64,000 nt of DNA from Haloferax larsenii JCM 13917 (GTDB lineage Archaea; Halobacteriota; Halobacteria; Halobacteriales; Haloferacaceae), in NCBI RefSeq assembly GCF_000336955.1, contig NZ_AOLI01000024.1:1-64000 (forward strand), read 5' to 3'. The position numbers were made by a program, and so were the translations under genes. The notes beneath the pieces were generated by a model that saw nothing but the letters and a program-made list of their open reading frames with translations, had not been told where the DNA came from and ran no database searches. Of this stretch, positions 39,079 to 49,117 are shown piece by piece (position 1 is the first letter of the stretch; every line of letters starts with the position of its first letter).

Positions 39079-39102
39079 CGATTGGGAACATACCCATCTT
39101 CG

Positions 39103-42100
39103 ATGTCGCAGGCCCCTCAAAACCGAGAACTCACAGAGCGGTTCATCCAGTTCTACCGCAACTACTATCGGGAGGAAATCGGAGACCTGGCACAGCAGTA
39201 CCCGAAAGAAAAGCGCTCTCTGTACATCGATTACGACGACCTGTACAACTTCGACCCGGAACTCGCCGACGACTACGTCACGAAACCCGGGCAGTATCAG
39301 GAGTACGCCGAGGAAGCCCTGCGACTGTTCGACCTGCCCGCGGACGTCAAACTCGGACAGGCACACGTCCGGATGCGAAACCTCCCCGACACCATCGACA
39401 TCCGCAACATCCGGGTCAACGACGACCACATCGGGACGCTCATCGCCGTCCAAGGAATCGTCCGCAAGGCGACCGACGTGCGCCCGAAGATTACCGAGGC
39501 GGCCTTCGAATGCCAGCGCTGTGGGACGATGAGTTACATCCCGCAGGGCGACGGCGGGTTCCAGGAACCCCACGAGTGTCAGGGCTGTGAACGACAAGGG
39601 CCGTTCCGCATCGAGTTCGACCAGTCGAACTTCGTCGACTCTCAGAAACTACGCGTCCAAGAATCCCCCGAGGGCCTGCGCGGGGGCGAGACGCCACAGA
39701 GTATCGACATCAATCTCGCCGACGACGTGACCGGGAAAGTCACCGCCGGCGACCACGTCACCGTCGTCGGCATCCTCCACATCGAACAACAAACCTCTGG
39801 AAACGAGAAGACGCCCGTCTTCGACTACTACATGGAGGGCATCGCGCTCTCTATCGAAGACGAGGAGTTCGAGGACATGGAGATTACCGACGACGACGTG
39901 GCCGAAATCGTCGAACTCTCGAACGAACCCAACATCTACGAGAAGATGGTCGATTCCGTGGCGCCGGCCATCTACGGCTACGAACAGGAGAAACTCGCCA
40001 TGATTCTCCAACTGTTCTCGGGTGTCACCAAACATCTCCCCGACGGGTCGCGGATTCGCGGCGACCTGCACATGTTGTTGATAGGGGACCCCGGAACTGG
40101 CAAATCGCAGATGTTATCATATATCCGACATATTGCGCCACGCTCCGTCTACACCTCGGGTAAGGGTTCCTCGTCTGCAGGTCTCTGTGTGACTGGTGAC
40201 ACTCGAATCCACACCGAAGACGGATTCCGAGAAATCGAAACTGTCGCACTCGACGAACACCCCAAACCAGTATCAGAGGAGACGAGCGCGGGGAAACAGG
40301 TGGGAATACAGACGTTCGATAGGAACGCGGGCGAGATGACCGAGCGACAATCCTCTCACGTCTGGCGTATGCCGAAAAAGCCGTGCCGACGCATCGAGAC
40401 CGCACACGGAAAGACGCTCACAGCGTCCGAAAACACGCCTGTTCTGACGTGTGGAAAACAGGGTATCGAGTGGGTCGATATCTCGGACATTGAGCCGGGA
40501 CAGTTTGTTGCAGTCCCGAAGTATGGTGAACTCGAACGTTCTGAAGTTCCTGTTCGAGACTTCCTCGAACTGACGACCGAGAAGGTGAAACTCTCTGAGG
40601 AGTCTATCGAACTCGTTCGAGACGAACTATGTGGGCGGTTCGGCCACCTACGGGCCGCAGCAGCCGCGCTCGACCTCTCAGAGGACTTCGTATACGATTC
40701 CCTCCGGAACCGTCACATACCTCTCTCGAAACTCGATAGGATGCTTGATGCTGTCGAACTGACCCGTGACGCCATAGACTTCGACCGCGTAATGATCCGT
40801 CACGGGGACAGTATCACTGTTCCGGAGACGTTCGACGAGGACCTCATGTACCTCCTCGGGCTTGTCTTCGGCGATGGTGATATCTCTCTCGACCGGCGTG
40901 GCGGTAACCGTGGACTGGTCCGGATTTCGAACAGTGACGAGGCGCTGTTAGAACGAGCGAAAGCGATCTTTGCCGACAAGTTCGACAAACATCCGGAGAT
41001 TGAGCGTCAGTCCGGGCGGGTACCGTGTATCAGGGTGAGCAGTGCGACGATTGCACGGCTCTTCGCAAACGCCGGAATGGAAACGCCAAAGGTCGATCTG
41101 GAACTCGCACCCGAACTGACGACGGCGGCGCACGCTGACGCATTCCTCCGGGGGTTGATGGATGCTGACGGCTCCGTTTCGGTCCGTGAAAACGGCGGAT
41201 CGAGCATTCTCATTTCTACTATCAGCGAACCGCTTGCCGAGCAAGTGCAGCTGATGCTGGAGACGTACGGTATTCGTGCGCGTCGACGTGAGCGCGACCG
41301 GCGTGGAACGTCTGAGCTTGCGAACGGTCACACAATCGAATCGAAGCACGTCCAGCACTTCCTGGAGATGTATGGTTCGAACATCGAGCGGTATGCCGAC
41401 GAGATTGGATTCGATGTCGAAGCCAAACAACAAGCGCTTGATAAAATCACGAACGCCGCGCGGCGACGAGAGGAAACGATTCCTGTCGGCTCAGCATTGG
41501 TCGCAACTGATGGTGCGGGCGGTGCATATCATACGAACGTCTCTCGTGGCGATAATCCGGGGCGTGGACGTTCGAAAGAGATTCTCGAGAATGTCGACCT
41601 CGGGGATGCGGAATCTGCTATTCGTGAGGCGGTCGATGCCGACCTCCGGTGGGACCGCGTCGTCGATTCGGCGGCTGTCGGTGAGCGGGAAGTGTTTGAC
41701 TTGACAGTCCCCGAAACACACAATTTCGTTGGCAACGGTATCGTGACCCACAACACCGCCGCCGCCGTCCGCGACGATTTCGGCGACGGCCAGCAGTGGA
41801 CGCTCGAAGCGGGTGCGCTCGTCCTCGCCGACAAGGGAATTGCGGCAGTCGACGAACTGGATAAAATGAGGAGCGAAGACCGCTCTGCGATGCACGAGGG
41901 CCTCGAACAACAGCAGATTTCGGTCTCTAAGGCGGGTATCAACGCGACGCTCAAGTCACGGTGTTCGCTTCTCGGCGCGGCGAACCCGAAGTACGGTCGA
42001 TTCGACCAGTACGAACCAATCGGTGAGCAAATCGACCTCGAACCGGCGCTCATCTCCCGATTCGACCTCATCTTCACGGTCACAGACGACCCCGACCCCG

Positions 42101-42780
42101 ACACCGACGCCGAACTCGCAGAACACATCATCAAGACGAACTACGCAGGGGAGTTGAACACCCAGCGGACGAACGTCGCGAACTCCGAGTTCACCGAAGA
42201 GCAGGTCAACTCCGTCACGGACGAAGTCGCACCCGACATCGACGCCGAACTCCTTCGGAAGTACATCGCCTACTCCAAGCGGACCTGCTACCCGACGCTG
42301 ACCGAGGAAGCCAAGAACATCATCCGCGACTTCTACGTCGACTTCCGCGCCCGCGGGGCTGACGAGGACGCACCGGTGCCCGTCACGGCCCGGAAACTCG
42401 AAGCGCTCGTTCGGCTCTCGGAGGCCTCGGCGCGTGTCCGTCTGTCGGACAAAGTGACCGCCGAAGACGCAGAGCGCGTCACCGGCATCGTCGAGTCGTG
42501 TCTACGCGATATCGGGATGGACCCCGAGACGGGCGAGTTCGACGCCGACATCGTCGAGACGGGACGTTCGAAGACCCAGCGCGACCGTATCAAGAACCTC
42601 CTCGAACTCATCCGCAACATGCAAGAAGAGTACGAAGAGGGTGCGCCACACGAAGAGGTCGTCGAGCGCGCCAACGCCGAGTTGAACATGGACGAAAAGA
42701 CGGTCGGCGACCAACTGGAGAAACTCAAGATGAAAGGCGATATCTACGAACCGCGCGGCGACGTCTACCGGGCGACGTAG
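39103..42780 (+). CDS. mcm: MCM replicative helicase, interrupted by an intein
   Basis: 1225 codons encoding about 702 residues of MCM plus a 523-residue intein (entry at 40186). The N-terminal hexamerisation domain has a zinc site (CQRCG and CQGCE, about residues 135-165). The AAA+ domain has Walker A GDPGTGKSQM (about 328-337). After the intein come the Walker B AAVDELDKM, sensor 1 GAANPKYG, the arginine finger LISRFDLIF and the C-terminal winged helix. The two extein halves join as GSSSAGL/TAAAVRDDFG, restoring the conserved MCM sequence. MCM is essential, so the intein must splice efficiently or be under purifying selection for splicing. Confidence 0.96.
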   Translation: MSQAPQNRELTERFIQFYRNYYREEIGDLAQQYPKEKRSLYIDYDDLYNFDPELADDYVTKPGQYQEYAEEALRLFDLPADVKLGQAHVRMRNLPDTIDIRNIRVNDDHIGTLIAVQGIVRKATDVRPKITEAAFECQRCGTMSYIPQGDGGFQEPHECQGCERQGPFRIEFDQSNFVDSQKLRVQESPEGLRGGETPQSIDINLADDVTGKVTAGDHVTVVGILHIEQQTSGNEKTPVFDYYMEGIALSIEDEEFEDMEITDDDVAEIVELSNEPNIYEKMVDSVAPAIYGYEQEKLAMILQLFSGVTKHLPDGSRIRGDLHMLLIGDPGTGKSQMLSYIRHIAPRSVYTSGKGSSSAGLCVTGDTRIHTEDGFREIETVALDEHPKPVSEETSAGKQVGIQTFDRNAGEMTERQSSHVWRMPKKPCRRIETAHGKTLTASENTPVLTCGKQGIEWVDISDIEPGQFVAVPKYGELERSEVPVRDFLELTTEKVKLSEESIELVRDELCGRFGHLRAAAAALDLSEDFVYDSLRNRHIPLSKLDRMLDAVELTRDAIDFDRVMIRHGDSITVPETFDEDLMYLLGLVFGDGDISLDRRGGNRGLVRISNSDEALLERAKAIFADKFDKHPEIERQSGRVPCIRVSSATIARLFANAGMETPKVDLELAPELTTAAHADAFLRGLMDADGSVSVRENGGSSILISTISEPLAEQVQLMLETYGIRARRRERDRRGTSELANGHTIESKHVQHFLEMYGSNIERYADEIGFDVEAKQQALDKITNAARRREETIPVGSALVATDGAGGAYHTNVSRGDNPGRGRSKEILENVDLGDAESAIREAVDADLRWDRVVDSAAVGEREVFDLTVPETHNFVGNGIVTHNTAAAVRDDFGDGQQWTLEAGALVLADKGIAAVDELDKMRSEDRSAMHEGLEQQQISVSKAGINATLKSRCSLLGAANPKYGRFDQYEPIGEQIDLEPALISRFDLIFTVTDDPDPDTDAELAEHIIKTNYAGELNTQRTNVANSEFTEEQVNSVTDEVAPDIDAELLRKYIAYSKRTCYPTLTEEAKNIIRDFYVDFRARGADEDAPVPVTARKLEALVRLSEASARVRLSDKVTAEDAERVTGIVESCLRDIGMDPETGEFDADIVETGRSKTQRDRIKNLLELIRNMQEEYEEGAPHEEVVERANAELNMDEKTVGDQLEKLKMKGDIYEPRGDVYRAT
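40186..41754 (+). mobile_element. Intein with LAGLIDADG homing endonuclease inside mcm
   Basis: Starts with Cys (CVTGDTRIHTEDGFREIE, block A) and ends with NFVGNGIVTHN (blocks F and G, penultimate His and terminal Asn), followed by Thr as the +1 nucleophile. Length 523 residues. The endonuclease motifs are LLGLVFGDGD (block C) and FLRGLMDADG (block E), both with acidic residues, so cleavage activity looks possible. Block B reads HGKTLTASENTPVL where most inteins have T-x-x-H; the His appears to be absent. Base composition is visibly less GC-rich than the exteins, a sign of transfer. Confidence 0.95.
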
Positions 42781-42911: not shown

Positions 42912-43214
42912 ATGGACCGAATCTCCGCTATCCGGAACATCGAGGACGCCATTCGCGACTTCGAGTCGGGCGAGGCCGACCTCGCAAGCACGGAACGACG
43001 TGTCGTGACCGTCCTCCGGACGTTCGCGACGGAGTTCGAGACAGACACCGGTGAAGCCGCCCTCGATGCGTGGAAGGCCGTCGGCGACGAGCGAGCGGAA
43101 GGAATCGTCGTCCTCGCGGCGACCGAGTCCGAAGCAGCCACGCGAGTCCGTGACCTCCTCGCTGAAGCCGCGGAGTCGGCCGACAGCATCGACTTCGCTG
43201 TCGAACGCGTCTGA
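42912..43214 (+). CDS. Small haloarchaeal helical protein in the minD1 neighbourhood
   Basis: 100 residues, acidic, all-helical: SAIRNIEDAIRDFESGEADL, then LRTFATEFETDTGEAALDAW and a C-terminal helix EAATRVRDLLAEAAESADSI. No known motif. It starts a run of five same-strand genes that ends with minD1. Function unknown; it may be a small coiled-coil partner. Confidence 0.75.
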   Translation: MDRISAIRNIEDAIRDFESGEADLASTERRVVTVLRTFATEFETDTGEAALDAWKAVGDERAEGIVVLAATESEAATRVRDLLAEAAESADSIDFAVERV

Positions 43215-43286
43215 ACCCCCGTTCAGCGCCACTTCTCTGCGGCCGGTGTCGAACGATTTTTCTCCCGACTCCGTGACCCATCGCGC

Positions 43287-43625
43287 GTGCTGTTGGTCGT
43301 GACATACTCGAAGGCGGCACGGACGACGCTCCGCAACATCTGTCGAACCCACGACGAGACTGTCGTTCGTCGGTTCGGGCGGGCCGCACTCTTCGAGGAG
43401 ACGGAGTTGGGTGCGTTCCTCGCGTTGCGGCTGCAAGCAAAACACGGCGCGGACGTGCAACTCGAACAGACGGAACCGTTCAACGAATTCGAAGCCGTTT
43501 CCGAGCCAGTTCGCGAGGCTGCTAGCGCGTACGAGAACCGCGAGTCGCCGTCGACCCCCTATCGGAAATTCGCGTCGGGAACCGACCACCCGTCTCCCGA
43601 CCAGATGCGCGACCGGGAGTTATGA
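43287..43625 (+). CDS. Haloarchaeal protein of unknown function, translationally coupled to the next gene
   Basis: 112 residues from GTG 43287. The N-terminal VVTYSKAARTTLRNICRTHD and RRFGRAALFEETELGAFLAL look like a compact alpha/beta domain; a disordered charged tail follows (ENRESPSTPYRKFASGTDHP). Its TGA overlaps the next ATG as ATGA (43622-43625), so the two proteins are probably made in equal amounts and may form a complex. I do not recognise the family. Confidence 0.75.
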   Translation: MLLVVTYSKAARTTLRNICRTHDETVVRRFGRAALFEETELGAFLALRLQAKHGADVQLEQTEPFNEFEAVSEPVREAASAYENRESPSTPYRKFASGTDHPSPDQMRDREL

Positions 43626-44473
43626 AGGCTCGACTGCCGGACGGGACGACGATTCAGGGTCGGGGAATCGACCTCTCTGCGTTCGATATCGACGCCGACA
43701 GCGTGGTCGATTCGATTCGATGTTCGACAGCCGACCAGCGCGGACTCCACATCGACTGTCCCGACCCGGGACCGGGCCACGACCGACTCGCTGTGGTTCC
43801 GCTCCCGAGTTTCTCACGTTCGCACGCCCTCGCTGCTGCCGGGCGCTCTCGTGGACTGACGACGCCTGTCGACGACGAACTCGACCGAATCGAGACGCGG
43901 CTTGCCGATATCGAATCGGACACGGACACCGACGAGTCGCTCGAAGCGCTTCGAGCGGCCCGTCGTCGTCTCGCGACGGCCGGGGCGGACGAGGACCGTC
44001 TCAGGGAGCGGGTGGCGACGCTCCGCGGGCAGTTGAACGCCCACCGCGACGCCGATGACGAGGATGCGGCCGCAGCGGTCAAAACCGAACTCGTCGAGAC
44101 GACGACGAAACTCTCCGAAGTATCGACAGAGCGCATCGCGGCCGAACAGCGGCTTTCGACCCTCGAACAGGACGCGCGGCGCTCACGAGACACTCGCGAA
44201 GAGCGCCTCCGCCTGCAGGACGCGCTGGACAATCGCCGCCGCGAGGCCAGGCAGTACCTCGCCGACACACTCGAAGCCGAGTTCGAGAGCGCGGTTCGAG
44301 AACTCCACAAACGAGGTGCTGACGTGGCCGACTCCCGAGCAGAACACGTCGTACCCACGCTCGCCGCAGTCAAACTCGCCGACTTCTGTGCGCCGGTCGT
44401 TCTGACGGCGCGCTTTTTCTCCGACGCCTCGACTGCCGCACAGGTGCTCGATACGCCGGTTATTCGAGTTTAA
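43622..44473 (+). CDS. Coiled-coil protein of unknown function in the minD1 operon
   Basis: 283 residues. An N-terminal globular part (residues 1-75, MKARLPDGTTIQGRGIDLSA and VVPLPSFSRSHALAAAGRSRG) is followed by a long heptad-patterned coiled coil, about residues 82-215 (DDELDRIETRLADIE through EERLRLQDALDNRRREARQY), and a C-terminal alpha/beta part with FCAPVVLTARFFSDASTAAQ. No signal peptide or membrane segment. Coupled to the preceding gene by an ATGA overlap. A coiled-coil protein encoded with a MinD ATPase recalls MinE, PomX or bactofilin-type partners, but this is inference only. Confidence 0.75.
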   Translation: MKARLPDGTTIQGRGIDLSAFDIDADSVVDSIRCSTADQRGLHIDCPDPGPGHDRLAVVPLPSFSRSHALAAAGRSRGLTTPVDDELDRIETRLADIESDTDTDESLEALRAARRRLATAGADEDRLRERVATLRGQLNAHRDADDEDAAAAVKTELVETTTKLSEVSTERIAAEQRLSTLEQDARRSRDTREERLRLQDALDNRRREARQYLADTLEAEFESAVRELHKRGADVADSRAEHVVPTLAAVKLADFCAPVVLTARFFSDASTAAQVLDTPVIRV

Positions 44474-44511
44474 CTGCACAGTCTCACGTGAATGGCCGTT
44501 GCGGGCATCGA

Positions 44512-44519
44512 TTTATATA
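44512..44519 (+). promoter_or_regulatory. TATA box of the gene preceding minD1
   Basis: TTTATATA, 23-30 bases before ATG 44542, is one of the best boxes in the window. It means the last two genes (44542 and minD1) can be transcribed separately from the upstream three. Confidence 0.6.
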
Positions 44520-44541
44520 CGAAAAGGCGGCCATCCCCGTC

Positions 44542-45483
44542 ATGGATTTCGACGTCGACGTGTCTGTCGCCGACGCCGTGGCGCTCGTCACGGTTCGATT
44601 CGACAACACCACACCCGTCGACCAGCGGGTCAGACTGCGGAACCGCCTCGATGGACCGGTGTTGCCGCCGCGTCGGTCGGGCGTTCCCGAAGACGGATGG
44701 GACGAAACCGGGTTCGAGGGCGTCGTTCCCGCTGATTCGACGCTCGCAGTTGGCTACGCCTGTGCGATAGACGCCAGTGGAGACGACGGCAGTTCGCTCA
44801 CACCCGAAGACGTGGTTTCGGTCGACGTTCTCGGCCGCGACGACTCGGAAGCGATTTCACAGCAGGCCTCACCCGAAGACGCGATTCGTGAACTCGGGCC
44901 GTGTCGCCCGCCTGCTGACGTCGTTCCCGCGCCGCAGCCAACGCCGACTGAGGTCGCAGGGGAATCTGAAGTCGAATCGGAGTCTGACGCTGGAGCTGAA
45001 CTCTCCCGCGAAACCGCGTCGGTCGACACGGCTGCCGAAGCCGAGCGTGCTACAGGCCCGGTCGAATTCCCGACCGACGAGGAGGTTGCGGCCGCAGTCG
45101 AGTCGGAGACACCATCTGTGGAGGTGTCGGAGCCGCGGTCTGATTCGCCTGCCGACGACACTGAGGTGACCCACTCGGCTATCGACGACGCTGAGGTGAC
45201 CCACCCGACTACCGACGACACTGAGGCCCACCCGACTACCGACGACGTTGGGTCGTTCCTCACGGCCGCCGAGCGTCGAATCGAACTCGCCGAGCGCCTC
45301 GACGGCGCGTCCGTCGAAACGGCGGCGACTGCACTGGCGTCGAGCGATGTGGACGCGTCAGCCCTCTCGTCGCTCGCCACAGACCGTGACGAACTTCGCC
45401 GACTCGCTGCCCGCGCGACTGCGCTCGCCGACCGCGCGGCGGATGCCGACCCAGACACGGACGCACTGCGGAGGTTGACGTGA
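44542..45483 (+). CDS. Acidic linker-containing protein coupled to minD1
   Basis: 313 residues. An N-terminal beta domain (residues 1-90: VDVSVADAVALVTVRFDNTT, VDQRVRLRNRLDGPVLPPRR, DSTLAVGYACAID) is followed by a disordered, highly acidic linker (about 120-240). The linker contains near-perfect repeats of 10-12 residues (DDTEVTHSAI, DDAEVTHPTT, DDTEAHPTTD). A C-terminal helical domain follows (TAAERRIELAERLDGASVET to the end). Its TGA overlaps the GTG start of minD1 (GTGA), so the proteins are translated together. Likely an adaptor of the ATPase; family not recognised. Confidence 0.75.
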   Translation: MDFDVDVSVADAVALVTVRFDNTTPVDQRVRLRNRLDGPVLPPRRSGVPEDGWDETGFEGVVPADSTLAVGYACAIDASGDDGSSLTPEDVVSVDVLGRDDSEAISQQASPEDAIRELGPCRPPADVVPAPQPTPTEVAGESEVESESDAGAELSRETASVDTAAEAERATGPVEFPTDEEVAAAVESETPSVEVSEPRSDSPADDTEVTHSAIDDAEVTHPTTDDTEAHPTTDDVGSFLTAAERRIELAERLDGASVETAATALASSDVDASALSSLATDRDELRRLAARATALADRAADADPDTDALRRLT

Positions 45484-46142
45484 TTCTCGCCGTCGTCTCG
45501 GGCAAAGGCGGAGTCGGCAAGTCCACGCTGTCGTTCGAGTTGGCTGCGGAACTGGATGCTGTCGTCGTCGACGCCGACCTCGGCATGGCGAACCTGCCGT
45601 ACGCCCCCGGTCCAGACCTCCACGACGTGCTGGCTGGCCGTGCAGACCCGGTGGAAGCTGTTCGAGATAGTTCGTCGGTGTCGATACTCCCGTGTGGGCG
45701 GACGCTCGCCGGTGCCCGCGCCGCCGACGTTCGCCGTCTCGCAGACACGCTCCGCGCGGTCGAGGCCGCCTACGGCGATGTCGTGGTCGATTGTCCGGCC
45801 GGGATGCGCGCCGACGCAGGCGTGCCGCTCGCGGTCGCCGACGCATGTCTCCTCGTCGCGTCGCCGAAACGCTACGCGCTGGCCGACGCGGTTCGGACGC
45901 GCGAACTCGCTCGCGAACTCGACTGTGGACTCGCTGCGGTCGCTGTCAACCGCGTCGTCGACGACCCACCAGTGGACGCTTTCGCCGACGTACTCGGCGC
46001 TCCGACGACGGCGATTCCCGCCGACCCACGGCTCGCAGCAGCAATCGAGGAGTTCGACCCGGCGGTCCTCGATGCGCCGAACAGTCTCGTCAGTACTCGG
46101 ATTCGAGAGCTCGCTGCTTCGGTGTCGACCTGTCGGCGCTGA
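45480..46142 (+). CDS. minD1: MinD/ParA-family ATPase
   Basis: 220 residues from GTG 45480. The deviant Walker A SGKGGVGKSTLSF (K9, K14, S15) is intact, Walker A' is DADLGMANLPY, and the B site is VVVDCPAG. There is no obvious C-terminal amphipathic membrane-targeting helix of bacterial MinD type (the end is RIRELAASVSTCRR, somewhat amphipathic). MinD proteins dimerise on ATP binding and position cellular structures; H. volcanii has four paralogues, and its position beside tfb matches minD1 as I remember it. The two-gene coupling upstream suggests dedicated partners. Confidence 0.85.
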   Translation: MILAVVSGKGGVGKSTLSFELAAELDAVVVDADLGMANLPYAPGPDLHDVLAGRADPVEAVRDSSSVSILPCGRTLAGARAADVRRLADTLRAVEAAYGDVVVDCPAGMRADAGVPLAVADACLLVASPKRYALADAVRTRELARELDCGLAAVAVNRVVDDPPVDAFADVLGAPTTAIPADPRLAAAIEEFDPAVLDAPNSLVSTRIRELAASVSTCRR

Positions 46143-46209: not shown

Positions 46210-47076
46210 TCAGTCACGGAGTGCGACGTACGTCTTTCGAAGGGTAACGGGCGTCACGTCCGCAACGTCGGCGGCGTCGGCTTGCGTGCAGTCTGCGCCA
46301 ACGTCGCGCGCGGCGGTGTAGAGACACGCCGCAGCGACGCCGCAGGGGTTCTTCCCGGCGACGATACCGTCCTCGCGTGCGTCCGCGACGTATTCGCGGG
46401 CGCGGCGCTCCACGTCGCGGTCGAGGTCGAGTTTCGTCGCGAAGCGCGGGATGTACTCGGTCGGGTCCGTCGGAGCGACCGGGAGGCCGAGGTCGCGGTT
46501 GAGCGCTCGGTAGGCGGCGTGGTGCTCGGATTCGGTCGCCTTGGCGACGTCGCAGACTTCCTCGACGCTGCGTGCGATACCAGCGACGCGACAGGCGGCG
46601 TAGACGCAGGCGGCCGCGAAGCCTTCGAGCGAGCGTCCGCGCAGGAGGTCTTCGTTCTGTGCGGACTCGAAGAGCGCACACGCCTGCTCGCGGATGTGGT
46701 TCGGAAGCGACAGCGCGCTCGTGAGACGACGAATCTCGGTGAAGGCGTACACCTGATTGCGCTCGCGCTTCGACGAGATGCGGGCGCGGTTGTGCTGACG
46801 GCGCAGGCGGGCGAACTGGCGGCGCTTGCGCCCCTTGATACGCGTCGAACGACCGATTTCGGTCGAGAGGCCGCGGTCGTGGCGGGACCGAGTCAGTGGT
46901 GCGCCCGTGCGAGCGGGGTTTCGGTCGTCGTCGGCGAACGAGCGCCATTCGGGACCGTGGTCGATGCGGTACTCCGAGACGACCAGTCCGCAGTCGCCGC
47001 AGACCGTTTCGCCGGCTTCGACGCCGAGGTGTCCATCGCATTCGGGGCAACCCTGGGTGGAACGTGCTTCACTCAT
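46210..47076 (-). CDS. tfb: Transcription initiation factor B (TFB)
   Basis: 288 residues. N-terminal zinc ribbon (C10, C13, C26, C29), the B-finger/reader region WRSFADDDRNPARTGAPLTR, and two cyclin folds (RLTSALSLPNHIREQACALF, about residues 105-185, and PRFATKLDLDRDVERRARE, 205-285) that contact TBP and the BRE. TFB recruits RNA polymerase; haloarchaea carry many paralogues with distinct regulons, so which one this is cannot be inferred. ATG 47076 follows a TTTAAATA box by about 25-30 bases. Confidence 0.93.
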   Translation of the reverse strand: MSEARSTQGCPECDGHLGVEAGETVCGDCGLVVSEYRIDHGPEWRSFADDDRNPARTGAPLTRSRHDRGLSTEIGRSTRIKGRKRRQFARLRRQHNRARISSKRERNQVYAFTEIRRLTSALSLPNHIREQACALFESAQNEDLLRGRSLEGFAAACVYAACRVAGIARSVEEVCDVAKATESEHHAAYRALNRDLGLPVAPTDPTEYIPRFATKLDLDRDVERRAREYVADAREDGIVAGKNPCGVAAACLYTAARDVGADCTQADAADVADVTPVTLRKTYVALRD

Positions 47077-47100
47077 CACAATTGAAAATCGGGCTCGAAG

Positions 47101-47238: not shown

Positions 47239-47760
47239 ATGGGGTTGTCGGACATAGCTGCGACACTGGAGACAACGACGACTGAACAGCGCTCGCGCCA
47301 CGTCCCGACTGTGGACGATACCGATGTTTCACTCCGTACGCGATTCGAGACGCACGCGGACGCGCTCCCCTGCGCGCCCGCAGAAGCGGAGAGGGTTGTC
47401 GAGGCATACGGGTCGGGCACGACTGTCGGAGACAGTGCGCGTGCTGCCGGCGTCGCTCCGGTGACTGCGGCCAAGGTCCTACATCGCTGTGGCGAAGCGG
47501 GTGTAAACCCCCTCGCGCCCGAAGCGCGACGAATCGTCCGCGACTGGCTCGACGGACAACTGTCGCGCGCCGACGCGCTCGCACTCACTCGTGCGGACGA
47601 GTCGGAGTTCGCCCTGGCGACGTATCTCGAGACACACGACCCCATCGACCCCCTCGTCGAAGCCGTCGAGGGCGCGCTGACCGACCACGGAGATGCCTCC
47701 GTGGCGAAGCGCGACTCACTGGCCGAAACCATGAGTTCGGTCACCGACTTGCAGTTCTAG
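47239..47760 (+). CDS. Haloarchaeal HTH-like protein of unknown function
   Basis: 173 residues. The segment CAPAEAERVVEAYGSGTTVG-DSARAAGVAPVTAAKVLHRCG (about residues 44-84) has the spacing of a helix-turn-helix (SARAAGVAPVTAAKVLH as the recognition part), followed by VRDWLDGQLSRADALALTRA, a second helical domain. It resembles DNA-binding domains of haloarchaeal regulators without a ligand domain. Divergent from tfb across a 162-base spacer; a regulatory link to tfb is conceivable. Not recognised by name. Confidence 0.7.
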   Translation: MGLSDIAATLETTTTEQRSRHVPTVDDTDVSLRTRFETHADALPCAPAEAERVVEAYGSGTTVGDSARAAGVAPVTAAKVLHRCGEAGVNPLAPEARRIVRDWLDGQLSRADALALTRADESEFALATYLETHDPIDPLVEAVEGALTDHGDASVAKRDSLAETMSSVTDLQF

Positions 47761-48373: not shown

Positions 48374-49117
48374 TCAGTTTCTCACGAATTCGCCGACCGA
48401 CGACAACACGCCCCCGGAGTCGAGCGCGTCCGAGACGTCGACGTCGAACAGGACCGACGCCACACCCGCGACACTCGCGGCGAGGTCGGTGTCGTCTCGC
48501 CACGCTGGCGCGTCGGCGACGCGTCCGGATTCGGTTTCGGGCACGACTACATCGGCGTCGTCGAGCGCGTCGAACGTCGAAATCACGGCGTCCACGTCGG
48601 CACTGACGTCTGCCGCGCGTGCTGTCAACCGGCCGACTGCGTCCGCACCGCGGTCGGTCGCCGGTGCCACGAGCGCCACGCGGTCGCACGTCGTCGCCGC
48701 GGCGACAGTCGGATTCGATGCGAGCAATGGGGCGTCCACGAGCACGTGGTCGAACTCGGTGGTAGCGTCTTCGATTCGCCCCTCGAACGCCTGTGCCGCG
48801 CCGGTGGTCATCGCCCGCGCGAAGCGCTCGAACGGCGCATCGGCGGGACAAGCAGCGACTCGGCCGTCGGTGTCGGTATCGACGTCGACGAGTCCGGAAC
48901 CGAGCGGTTCGTCCGCGGCGTCGGTCAAAAGCGCCGTCGCGTCGGGTGAGAGGTCGCCCGCGACGTAATCTGAGAGTCCCTGTGTGGCGAACGCCGCGTC
49001 GAGGATGGCCACGTCGCGGCCGTCAGAAGCCAGTGCCGTGGCGAGTTCGAACGTGAGTCGCGTCGTGCCAGCGCCGCCGGTTGCGCCGACGAGCGCCGCG
49101 GTGGTTGGAACGGTCAT
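48374..49117 (-). CDS. MinD/ParA-like protein with lysine-less Walker A
   Basis: 247 residues with a MinD-like chain topology: TAALVGATGGAGTTRLTFEL at the N-terminus, VAILDAAFATQGLSDYVAGD (A' region), DHVLVDAPLL (B region) and VALVAPATDRGADAVGR. The deviant Walker A normally contains two lysines, K-G-G-x-G-K-T; here T13 and T18 replace them. Without the signature and P-loop lysines neither hydrolysis nor the usual dimer sandwich is expected. It could be a regulator or a nucleotide-independent partner of the intact MinD encoded 2.2 kb away. Confidence 0.8.
   Translation of the reverse strand: MTVPTTAALVGATGGAGTTRLTFELATALASDGRDVAILDAAFATQGLSDYVAGDLSPDATALLTDAADEPLGSGLVDVDTDTDGRVAACPADAPFERFARAMTTGAAQAFEGRIEDATTEFDHVLVDAPLLASNPTVAAATTCDRVALVAPATDRGADAVGRLTARAADVSADVDAVISTFDALDDADVVVPETESGRVADAPAWRDDTDLAASVAGVASVLFDVDVSDALDSGGVLSSVGEFVRN

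Follow-up and report, generated by a model that had tools for sequence, protein, structure and literature searches.

Which process is served by the MinD-type ATPase that is encoded at the end of a row of five genes (DUF7854, DUF7855, DUF7856, DUF7857 and minD1) in Haloferax larsenii JCM 13917? The genes lie on a stretch of 64,000 nucleotides (GCF_000336955.1, NZ_AOLI01000024.1, positions 1-64,000, forward strand), referred to hereafter as the window. The ATPase is presumably orthologous to MinD1 (HVO_0225) of H. volcanii, a name taken from the H. volcanii literature (PMC11588486, PMC11621097). That organism has four MinD paralogues, and in the available text of these papers roles in motility and cell shape are given for MinD2 and MinD4 and the function of MinD1 is left undescribed. 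Our comparison of haloarchaeal genomes provides good support for a link of DUF7857-MinD1 to one type of pilus, encoded next to the gene for the tubulin-like CetZ2, and to a sister version of that pilus.

DUF7857 and MinD1 form a conserved pair

In the window, DUF7857 (313 amino acids, 44542-45483 (+); Pfam PF25256, 2.3e-38) and MinD1 (220 amino acids, 45480-46142 (+)) overlap by a GTGA at 45480-45483. MinD1 is a deviant Walker A ATPase with Pfam matches to CbiA, ParA and AAA_31 above cut-off; it scored 126.6 bits against the minD_arch profile, which is below the cut-off of 201.75, and its nearest solved structures are archaeal MinDs. The set of loci analyzed (121) consisted of the window and 120 fetched loci, selected for holding a match. 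Within this set MinD1 adjoined 103 of the 107 DUF7857 genes, the other four belonging to a single genus, and an overlap (-4 or -1) was kept in 100 of the 103 pairs. A TATA-like word was present at -34 to -21 of DUF7857 in 62 out of 107 cases, against 3.5 expected; in the window it reads TTTATATA (44512-44519 (+)) and starts at -30 of the start at 44542. DUF7857 behaves as a dedicated partner of MinD1. The original prediction for this DNA, which held the coupled genes to be dedicated partners, is thereby borne out for DUF7857; DUF7854-7856 proved separable from the pair.

Both the P-loop lysine and the signature lysine (KGGxGK) were kept in 100 of the 103 MinD1 proteins, two of the exceptions lacking the former and one the latter. 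The motif reads KGGVGTST, with loss of the P-loop lysine, at L088 and L090 (G001 and G007, both genomes of one genus), where pair and pilus are retained. In a tree of 30 of the 82 clade-A MinD1 sequences, all 21 of clade B, all six other MinD matches and 14 of the 21 MinD-DUF7125 proteins, MinD1 formed one clade apart from the other MinDs (support 96/98), within which clade B (21 loci) was separated with support 99/98. The median length of DUF7857 is 121 amino acids in clade B versus 257. A 'PP' element, defined by a regular expression, occurred in 93 of the 103 DUF7857 proteins with MinD1 and in one of the four without. It was rejected as a MinD1-binding site, because the latter four come from one genus and therefore represent one event.

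In the AlphaFold2 model of DUF7857, built on 60 of the 107 sequences, a beta-sandwich (around residues 1-105) that has a short helical extension is joined by a disordered linker to a helical domain at the C-terminus; both domains are modelled with confidence. In the window the linker is acidic and carries a repeat, as had been predicted; the program TRF (Tandem Repeats Finder) reports a 30-base unit that is repeated 3.3 times at 45152-45246 (+). The C-terminal helical domain is present in 71 of the 107 proteins, 65 of which have DUF7856 in the same region, and 14 DUF7857 proteins that lack the domain also sit with DUF7856. In one genome of the genus without MinD1 (G036, genus g32; L100:9371-11029 (-)) DUF7856 and DUF7857 share a single open reading frame, and this natural fusion hints at contact between the two. 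The best fold match of DUF7857 (Z 7.8, root-mean-square deviation (rmsd) 3.8, 93 residues) was the mu-homology domain of delta-COP, among many beta-sandwiches. For DUF7855, modelled from 60 of 92 sequences (60-81% identity across the 60), a beta-alpha-beta-beta-alpha-beta core was obtained with a predicted local distance difference test score (pLDDT) of 95, with UreE as best match (Z 7.3, rmsd 1.9, 56 residues) among many ferredoxin-like folds. The fold-match rows inspected span residues 1-105 of DUF7857 and 1-64 of DUF7855; Foldseek gave no match with E <= 0.001 for either.

The pair is inherited together with a pilus cluster

Presence and absence were scored in 145 haloarchaeal genomes. DUF7857 and an unfragmented DUF7286, a family of the pilus cluster described below, were both found in 104 genomes and both missing in 39; no genome had DUF7857 only and two had DUF7286 only (phi 0.966). 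This count leaves out the DUF7286 fragments of G056, G012, G067 and G124; with them it becomes 104/0/6/35 (both, DUF7857 only, DUF7286 only, neither). As these four genomes contain pieces of DUF7286 only and yielded no DUF7857 match, both sides are decaying or gone together. For DUF7311, another family of the cluster, the corresponding numbers were 103, 1, 3 and 38 (phi 0.932). The two genomes with DUF7286 only can be specified further. G128 contains MinD1 and a diverged DUF7857 (40 bits), and in G100 the interior of DUF7856 is joined to the end of DUF7858 in one reading frame, so that the pair seems to have been deleted; its DUF7286 contains a stop, which adds G100 to the cases of joint decay.

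The agreement also holds inside genera. Seven genera contain genomes with and genomes without the pilus; of their 39 genomes, 38 agree, and among 20,000 shuffles made within genera there was none as good. For archaellin, taken as a control, 13,191 of 20,000 shuffles were as good; it does not follow the pair, and a link to the archaellum was rejected. DUF7125, found in 140 of the 145 genomes, is therefore uninformative and was dropped as a pilus marker. Copy numbers match as well: G058 and G140 are the sole genomes with two DUF7857-MinD1 pairs and the sole two with two DUF7311 matches above cut-off. The pair and the pilus cluster are usually located far apart in the genome. Distance correlations, calculated for the 41 loci with all eight families, were small and are exploratory.

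The genome sets were entered by hand from the presence tables, some of them by adding named genomes to another set or removing them from it. Their sizes match the tallies for DUF7855, DUF7856, DUF7857, DUF7311, DUF7286, DUF7858, the lysine-less ParA-like protein treated below, archaellin and DUF7125, with DUF7854 at 88 above cut-off; the MinD1 set (101) was derived as the DUF7857 genomes minus genus g32 plus G128.

The pilus is the one linked to cetZ2

In clade B the association is visible as gene neighbourhood. Pilus genes were present in the fetched stretch beside 15 of the 21 clade-B pairs, with varying completeness, and include a T2SSE secretion ATPase, a PilC-like protein, DUF7311, the coiled-coil protein DUF7310, a HerA-like ATPase, DUF7382 and a MinD-DUF7125 fusion. 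On another contig (C33), the genome of the window has a cluster of this type in diverged form, with DUF7310, DUF7311, the secretion ATPase, a PilC-like protein, DUF7283, DUF7285, DUF7284 and DUF7286. The PilC-like gene lacks a Pfam match and was named by its position and its likeness to other clusters. A divergent CetZ gene adjoins the C33 cluster. Its product scored 627 bits to 4b45 versus 317 to 4b46, and 4B45 is CetZ2 (PMC9856176), which identifies it as CetZ2. The gene lies beside 18 of 20 such pilus loci, among which L159 has the T2SSE ATPase and its PilC-like neighbour next to cetZ2. Since the neighbour of cetZ2 has been described as the pilB2/C2 type IV pilus regulon (Brown and Duggin 2023, PMC9856176), the cluster represents the pilB2/C2 system. 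The role of the cetZ-linked pili is described there as unknown.

The tree of the pilus ATPase splits into clades A and B with support 100/100 (it includes L139 and L157, which are one genome twice, and two partial rows), and its clade B is matched by clade B of the pair. The clade-B pilus clusters, for instance at L134:4227-5579 (+), encode a second MinD that is fused to DUF7125, so that every version of the system is found near a second ParA/MinD-like protein. Beside the clade-B pilus clusters of L134 (9794-12043 (-)) and L149 (9060-13760 (-)) large surface-type proteins are encoded, the former with a CARDB domain; these are possible adhesins.

The five genes make up three conserved units

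The original prediction described the five genes as a conserved operon. All the elements on which this was based are present: five genes on the same strand, the ATGA (43622-43625, between DUF7855 and DUF7856) and GTGA overlaps, and the extra TATA box before 44542. The set is also conserved across haloarchaea, the five genes being kept in the same order on one strand at 72 of the 121 loci, so that the refuting case named with the prediction, a set that is scattered in other haloarchaea, did not arise. A single five-gene operon was nevertheless rejected on the basis of the gap and TATA statistics. DUF7855 and DUF7856 overlap in 49 of 88 cases. Between DUF7854 and DUF7855 neither an overlap nor a gap of <=20 bases was observed in 82 cases (no gap under 31 bases), and DUF7856 and DUF7857 never overlap and come within 20 bases in only four of 79. 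As these two gaps are rarely or never short, the conserved units are three: DUF7854, DUF7855-DUF7856 and DUF7857-MinD1. A TATA-like word at -34 to -21 was found for 22 of 92 DUF7855 genes (11.4 expected) and for none of the DUF7854 (85), DUF7856 (88) and MinD1 (103) genes. In G013, G065, G141 and G135 the DUF7857-MinD1 pair shares a contig with the other genes of the set but is separated from them.

In the window, the first unit consists of DUF7854 (100 amino acids, 42912-43214 (+); PF25252, 9.3e-34) and the second of DUF7855 (112 amino acids, 43287-43625 (+); PF25253, 3.9e-60), which has a ferredoxin-like core, and DUF7856 (283 amino acids, 43622-44473 (+); PF25254, 1.4e-79), which forms a long coiled coil. 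The nearest named relative found for the window DUF7855 is from Haloferax elongans (97%). Judged by eye only, none of the five proteins has a signal peptide.

Additional genes follow the cetZ2-type version

The presence of several of these genes agrees with that of the cetZ2-type pilus in nearly all of the 145 genomes (DUF7854 142, DUF7856 142, DUF7858 141 and the ParA-like protein 143), in a class that was assigned from the MinD1 clade for genomes whose pilus locus had not been fetched, which makes the split partly circular. In the 19 genomes with a clade-B pair only, DUF7854 and DUF7856 were absent from all and DUF7855 from 18. Strict dependence is contradicted by G018 and G054, which have DUF7855-7856 without pair or pilus, and by G029 and G047, where DUF7855 alone is retained. 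The best reading of these distributions is that DUF7854-7856 belong to one version, the cetZ2-type, of the pilus system.

Three further genes lie downstream of the set. A TFB transcription factor (46213-47079 (-); Pfam TFIIB, 9.9e-42) neighbours 52 of the 72 five-gene loci and may be part of the system. DUF7858 (173 amino acids, 47239-47760 (+); PF25257) looks helix-turn-helix-like by eye and could be a regulator of the system; it shares the genome distribution of DUF7856, also when encoded far away (genus g2). The third gene (48374-49117 (-)) encodes a ParA-like protein without the P-loop lysine, a pseudo-ATPase on the basis of a residue comparison in which T or A replaced the lysine in all 48 relatives examined. 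This pseudo-ParA is kept in 89 of the 145 genomes, in step with the cetZ2-type pilus. Several matches to it contain one internal stop, including those in all eight sampled genomes of genus g24.

Proposed role and alternatives

Considering the analogy with bacterial systems, DUF7857 and MinD1 probably constitute a cytoplasmic ATPase-adaptor pair that places or numbers the machines of the pilB2/C2 pilus and its sister version. The ATP-bound dimer of MinD1 would be recruited to the pilus motor, like CpaE/TadZ or FleN/FlhG in bacteria, and would set where, or how many, pilus machines are built. MinD1 would be held by the beta-sandwich of DUF7857, whose acidic linker and helical C-terminal domain would, in the cetZ2-linked version, reach further parts, most likely the coiled-coil protein DUF7856. 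DUF7854, DUF7855-7856, DUF7858 and the pseudo-ParA would then be parts or regulators of the cetZ2-linked version only. The coupled pair, its promoter-like site, the co-inheritance across and inside genera, the clade-B adjacency, the copy-number match and the joint decay were all computed. An extended form, in which MinD1, the pseudo-ParA and CetZ2 make up a placement complex joined by DUF7857, the DUF7856 coiled coil and DUF7855, is speculative and rather unlikely; if true, one pilus would be positioned jointly by MinD and tubulin parts. The original prediction of an undescribed positioning or assembly system overlooks the type IV pilus to which the set belongs and whose cluster is located at another place in the genome.

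Several observations weigh against the proposed role. The case is computational, and physical contact, direction of action and positioning are what we infer. The genomes are related, so that the phi and Fisher values overstate independence, for which the within-genus test is a partial remedy. Genus g32 (four genomes) has the pilus markers and DUF7857 without MinD1, G001 and G007 have a MinD1 that lacks the P-loop lysine, and G100 has pilus markers without the pair, though with a stop in DUF7286. The cases of g32, G001 and G007 have to be accommodated by any mechanism. Four of the 21 clade-B pairs (L122, L127, L133 and L136) have no pilus gene in the fetched stretch, and two clade-B loci are partial, L140 having the MinD-DUF7125 gene only and L130 some of the genes only. 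The fold matches of DUF7857 and DUF7855 are within the usual background and identify no relative. MinD1 has neither the receiver domain of CpaE nor any other additional Pfam domain, and it was therefore not filed as CpaE/TadZ.

The pair might instead serve the same pilus as a FleN-like regulator of expression or motor activity, which we consider possible, if somewhat doubtful. Co-inheritance would fit this equally well, the genes for TFB and DUF7858 adjoin the five-gene set, and FleN was the closest regulator type among some weak matches of the neighbouring ParA; moreover, FleN/MinD ATPases (arCOG00589) have been proposed and discussed as regulators of archaeal type IV pili (Makarova 2016, PMC4858521). 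On the other hand, the Pfam search revealed no DNA-binding domain in DUF7857 or MinD1, and the adaptor-like layout of DUF7857 would better suit a structural role. It seems improbable that the pair and the pilus cluster are merely components of a single lifestyle or transfer package and have no direct functional contact. In favour of this reading, related genomes have many genes in common, the pattern of DUF7856 is repeated in DUF7858 and the pseudo-ParA, and the pilB2/C2 regulon has been noted to resemble a mobile element (Brown and Duggin 2023, PMC9856176). Against it, the two loci agree inside the seven mixed genera in spite of the distance that usually separates them, both genomes with two pairs have matching copy numbers, the B clades of pair and pilus ATPase coincide, and archaellin, of another filament, does not follow the pair. 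Highly improbable is a free-standing system of five genes, related for instance to the chromosome or replication. The gene directly upstream in the window (39082-42780 (+)) is presumably mcm, and G018 and G054 retain DUF7855-7856 in the absence of both pair and pilus, but the pair is located elsewhere in G013, G065, G141, G135 and most clade-B genomes, and in none of the 145 genomes does DUF7857 occur without an unfragmented DUF7286. A link to mcm or replication was rejected because the pair is located elsewhere in many genomes.

Relation to known systems

That a MinD-type ATPase serves a pilus is, as a kind of system, already known. In bacteria, the Tad secretin needs CpaE to be localised properly, and this ParA/MinD ATPase has been modelled as six dimers that surround the motor CpaF (PMC13170226); as an ATPase serving a TadA/PilB-type motor it provides the model of action for MinD1. 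CpaE/TadZ proteins have an N-terminal receiver domain, whereas MinD1 begins at the P-loop and has DUF7857 as a separate protein. Encoding together with the secretion ATPase, another CpaE/TadZ trait, is observed at 15 of the 21 clade-B loci; elsewhere the two are co-inherited and unlinked. The general idea of MinD-type ATPases regulating archaeal type IV pili is shared with Makarova 2016 (PMC4858521), the available text of which names no DUF7857 partner and ties no paralogue to a pilus by co-inheritance. Likewise, the account of the pilB2/C2 regulon (PMC9856176) concerns the same cluster beside CetZ2 as in L159, and its available text mentions no MinD, DUF7854-7857 or MCM-linked genes. Among the haloarchaeal MinD paralogues, MinD2 also has a co-encoded candidate partner, HVO_0596, but MinD2 and MinD4 act on archaella, cell shape and CetZ1 placement (PMC11588486, PMC11621097).

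In the literature search, which was largely outside subscription journals, we found no paper on DUF7854-7857, DUF7125/7283/7286/7310/7311 or HVO_0221 to HVO_0224, no paper with both pilB2 and MinD among the matches listed, no role for the pilB2/C2 pilus in the text available, and no experiment on the DUF7857-MinD1/pilus link. Within the literature so covered, the pairing of DUF7857 with MinD1, their partners and the assignment to one pilus are new. The proposed role brings MinD1, the pilB2/C2 pilus and several DUF families together in a single hypothesis that can be tested in a host amenable to gene deletion. Deletion of all four minD genes of Haloferax left division and growth unaffected (PMC11588486), and the motility of the quadruple mutant equalled that of the minD2 minD4 double mutant (PMC11588486, PMC11621097). 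Under the proposed role, growth, division and swimming would be unsuitable read-outs, and a minD1 mutant may have looked normal for this reason.

Finally, inspection by eye of the window revealed an intein-like insert in the gene at 39082-42780 (+), between SAGLCVTGDT and VVTHN-like ends.

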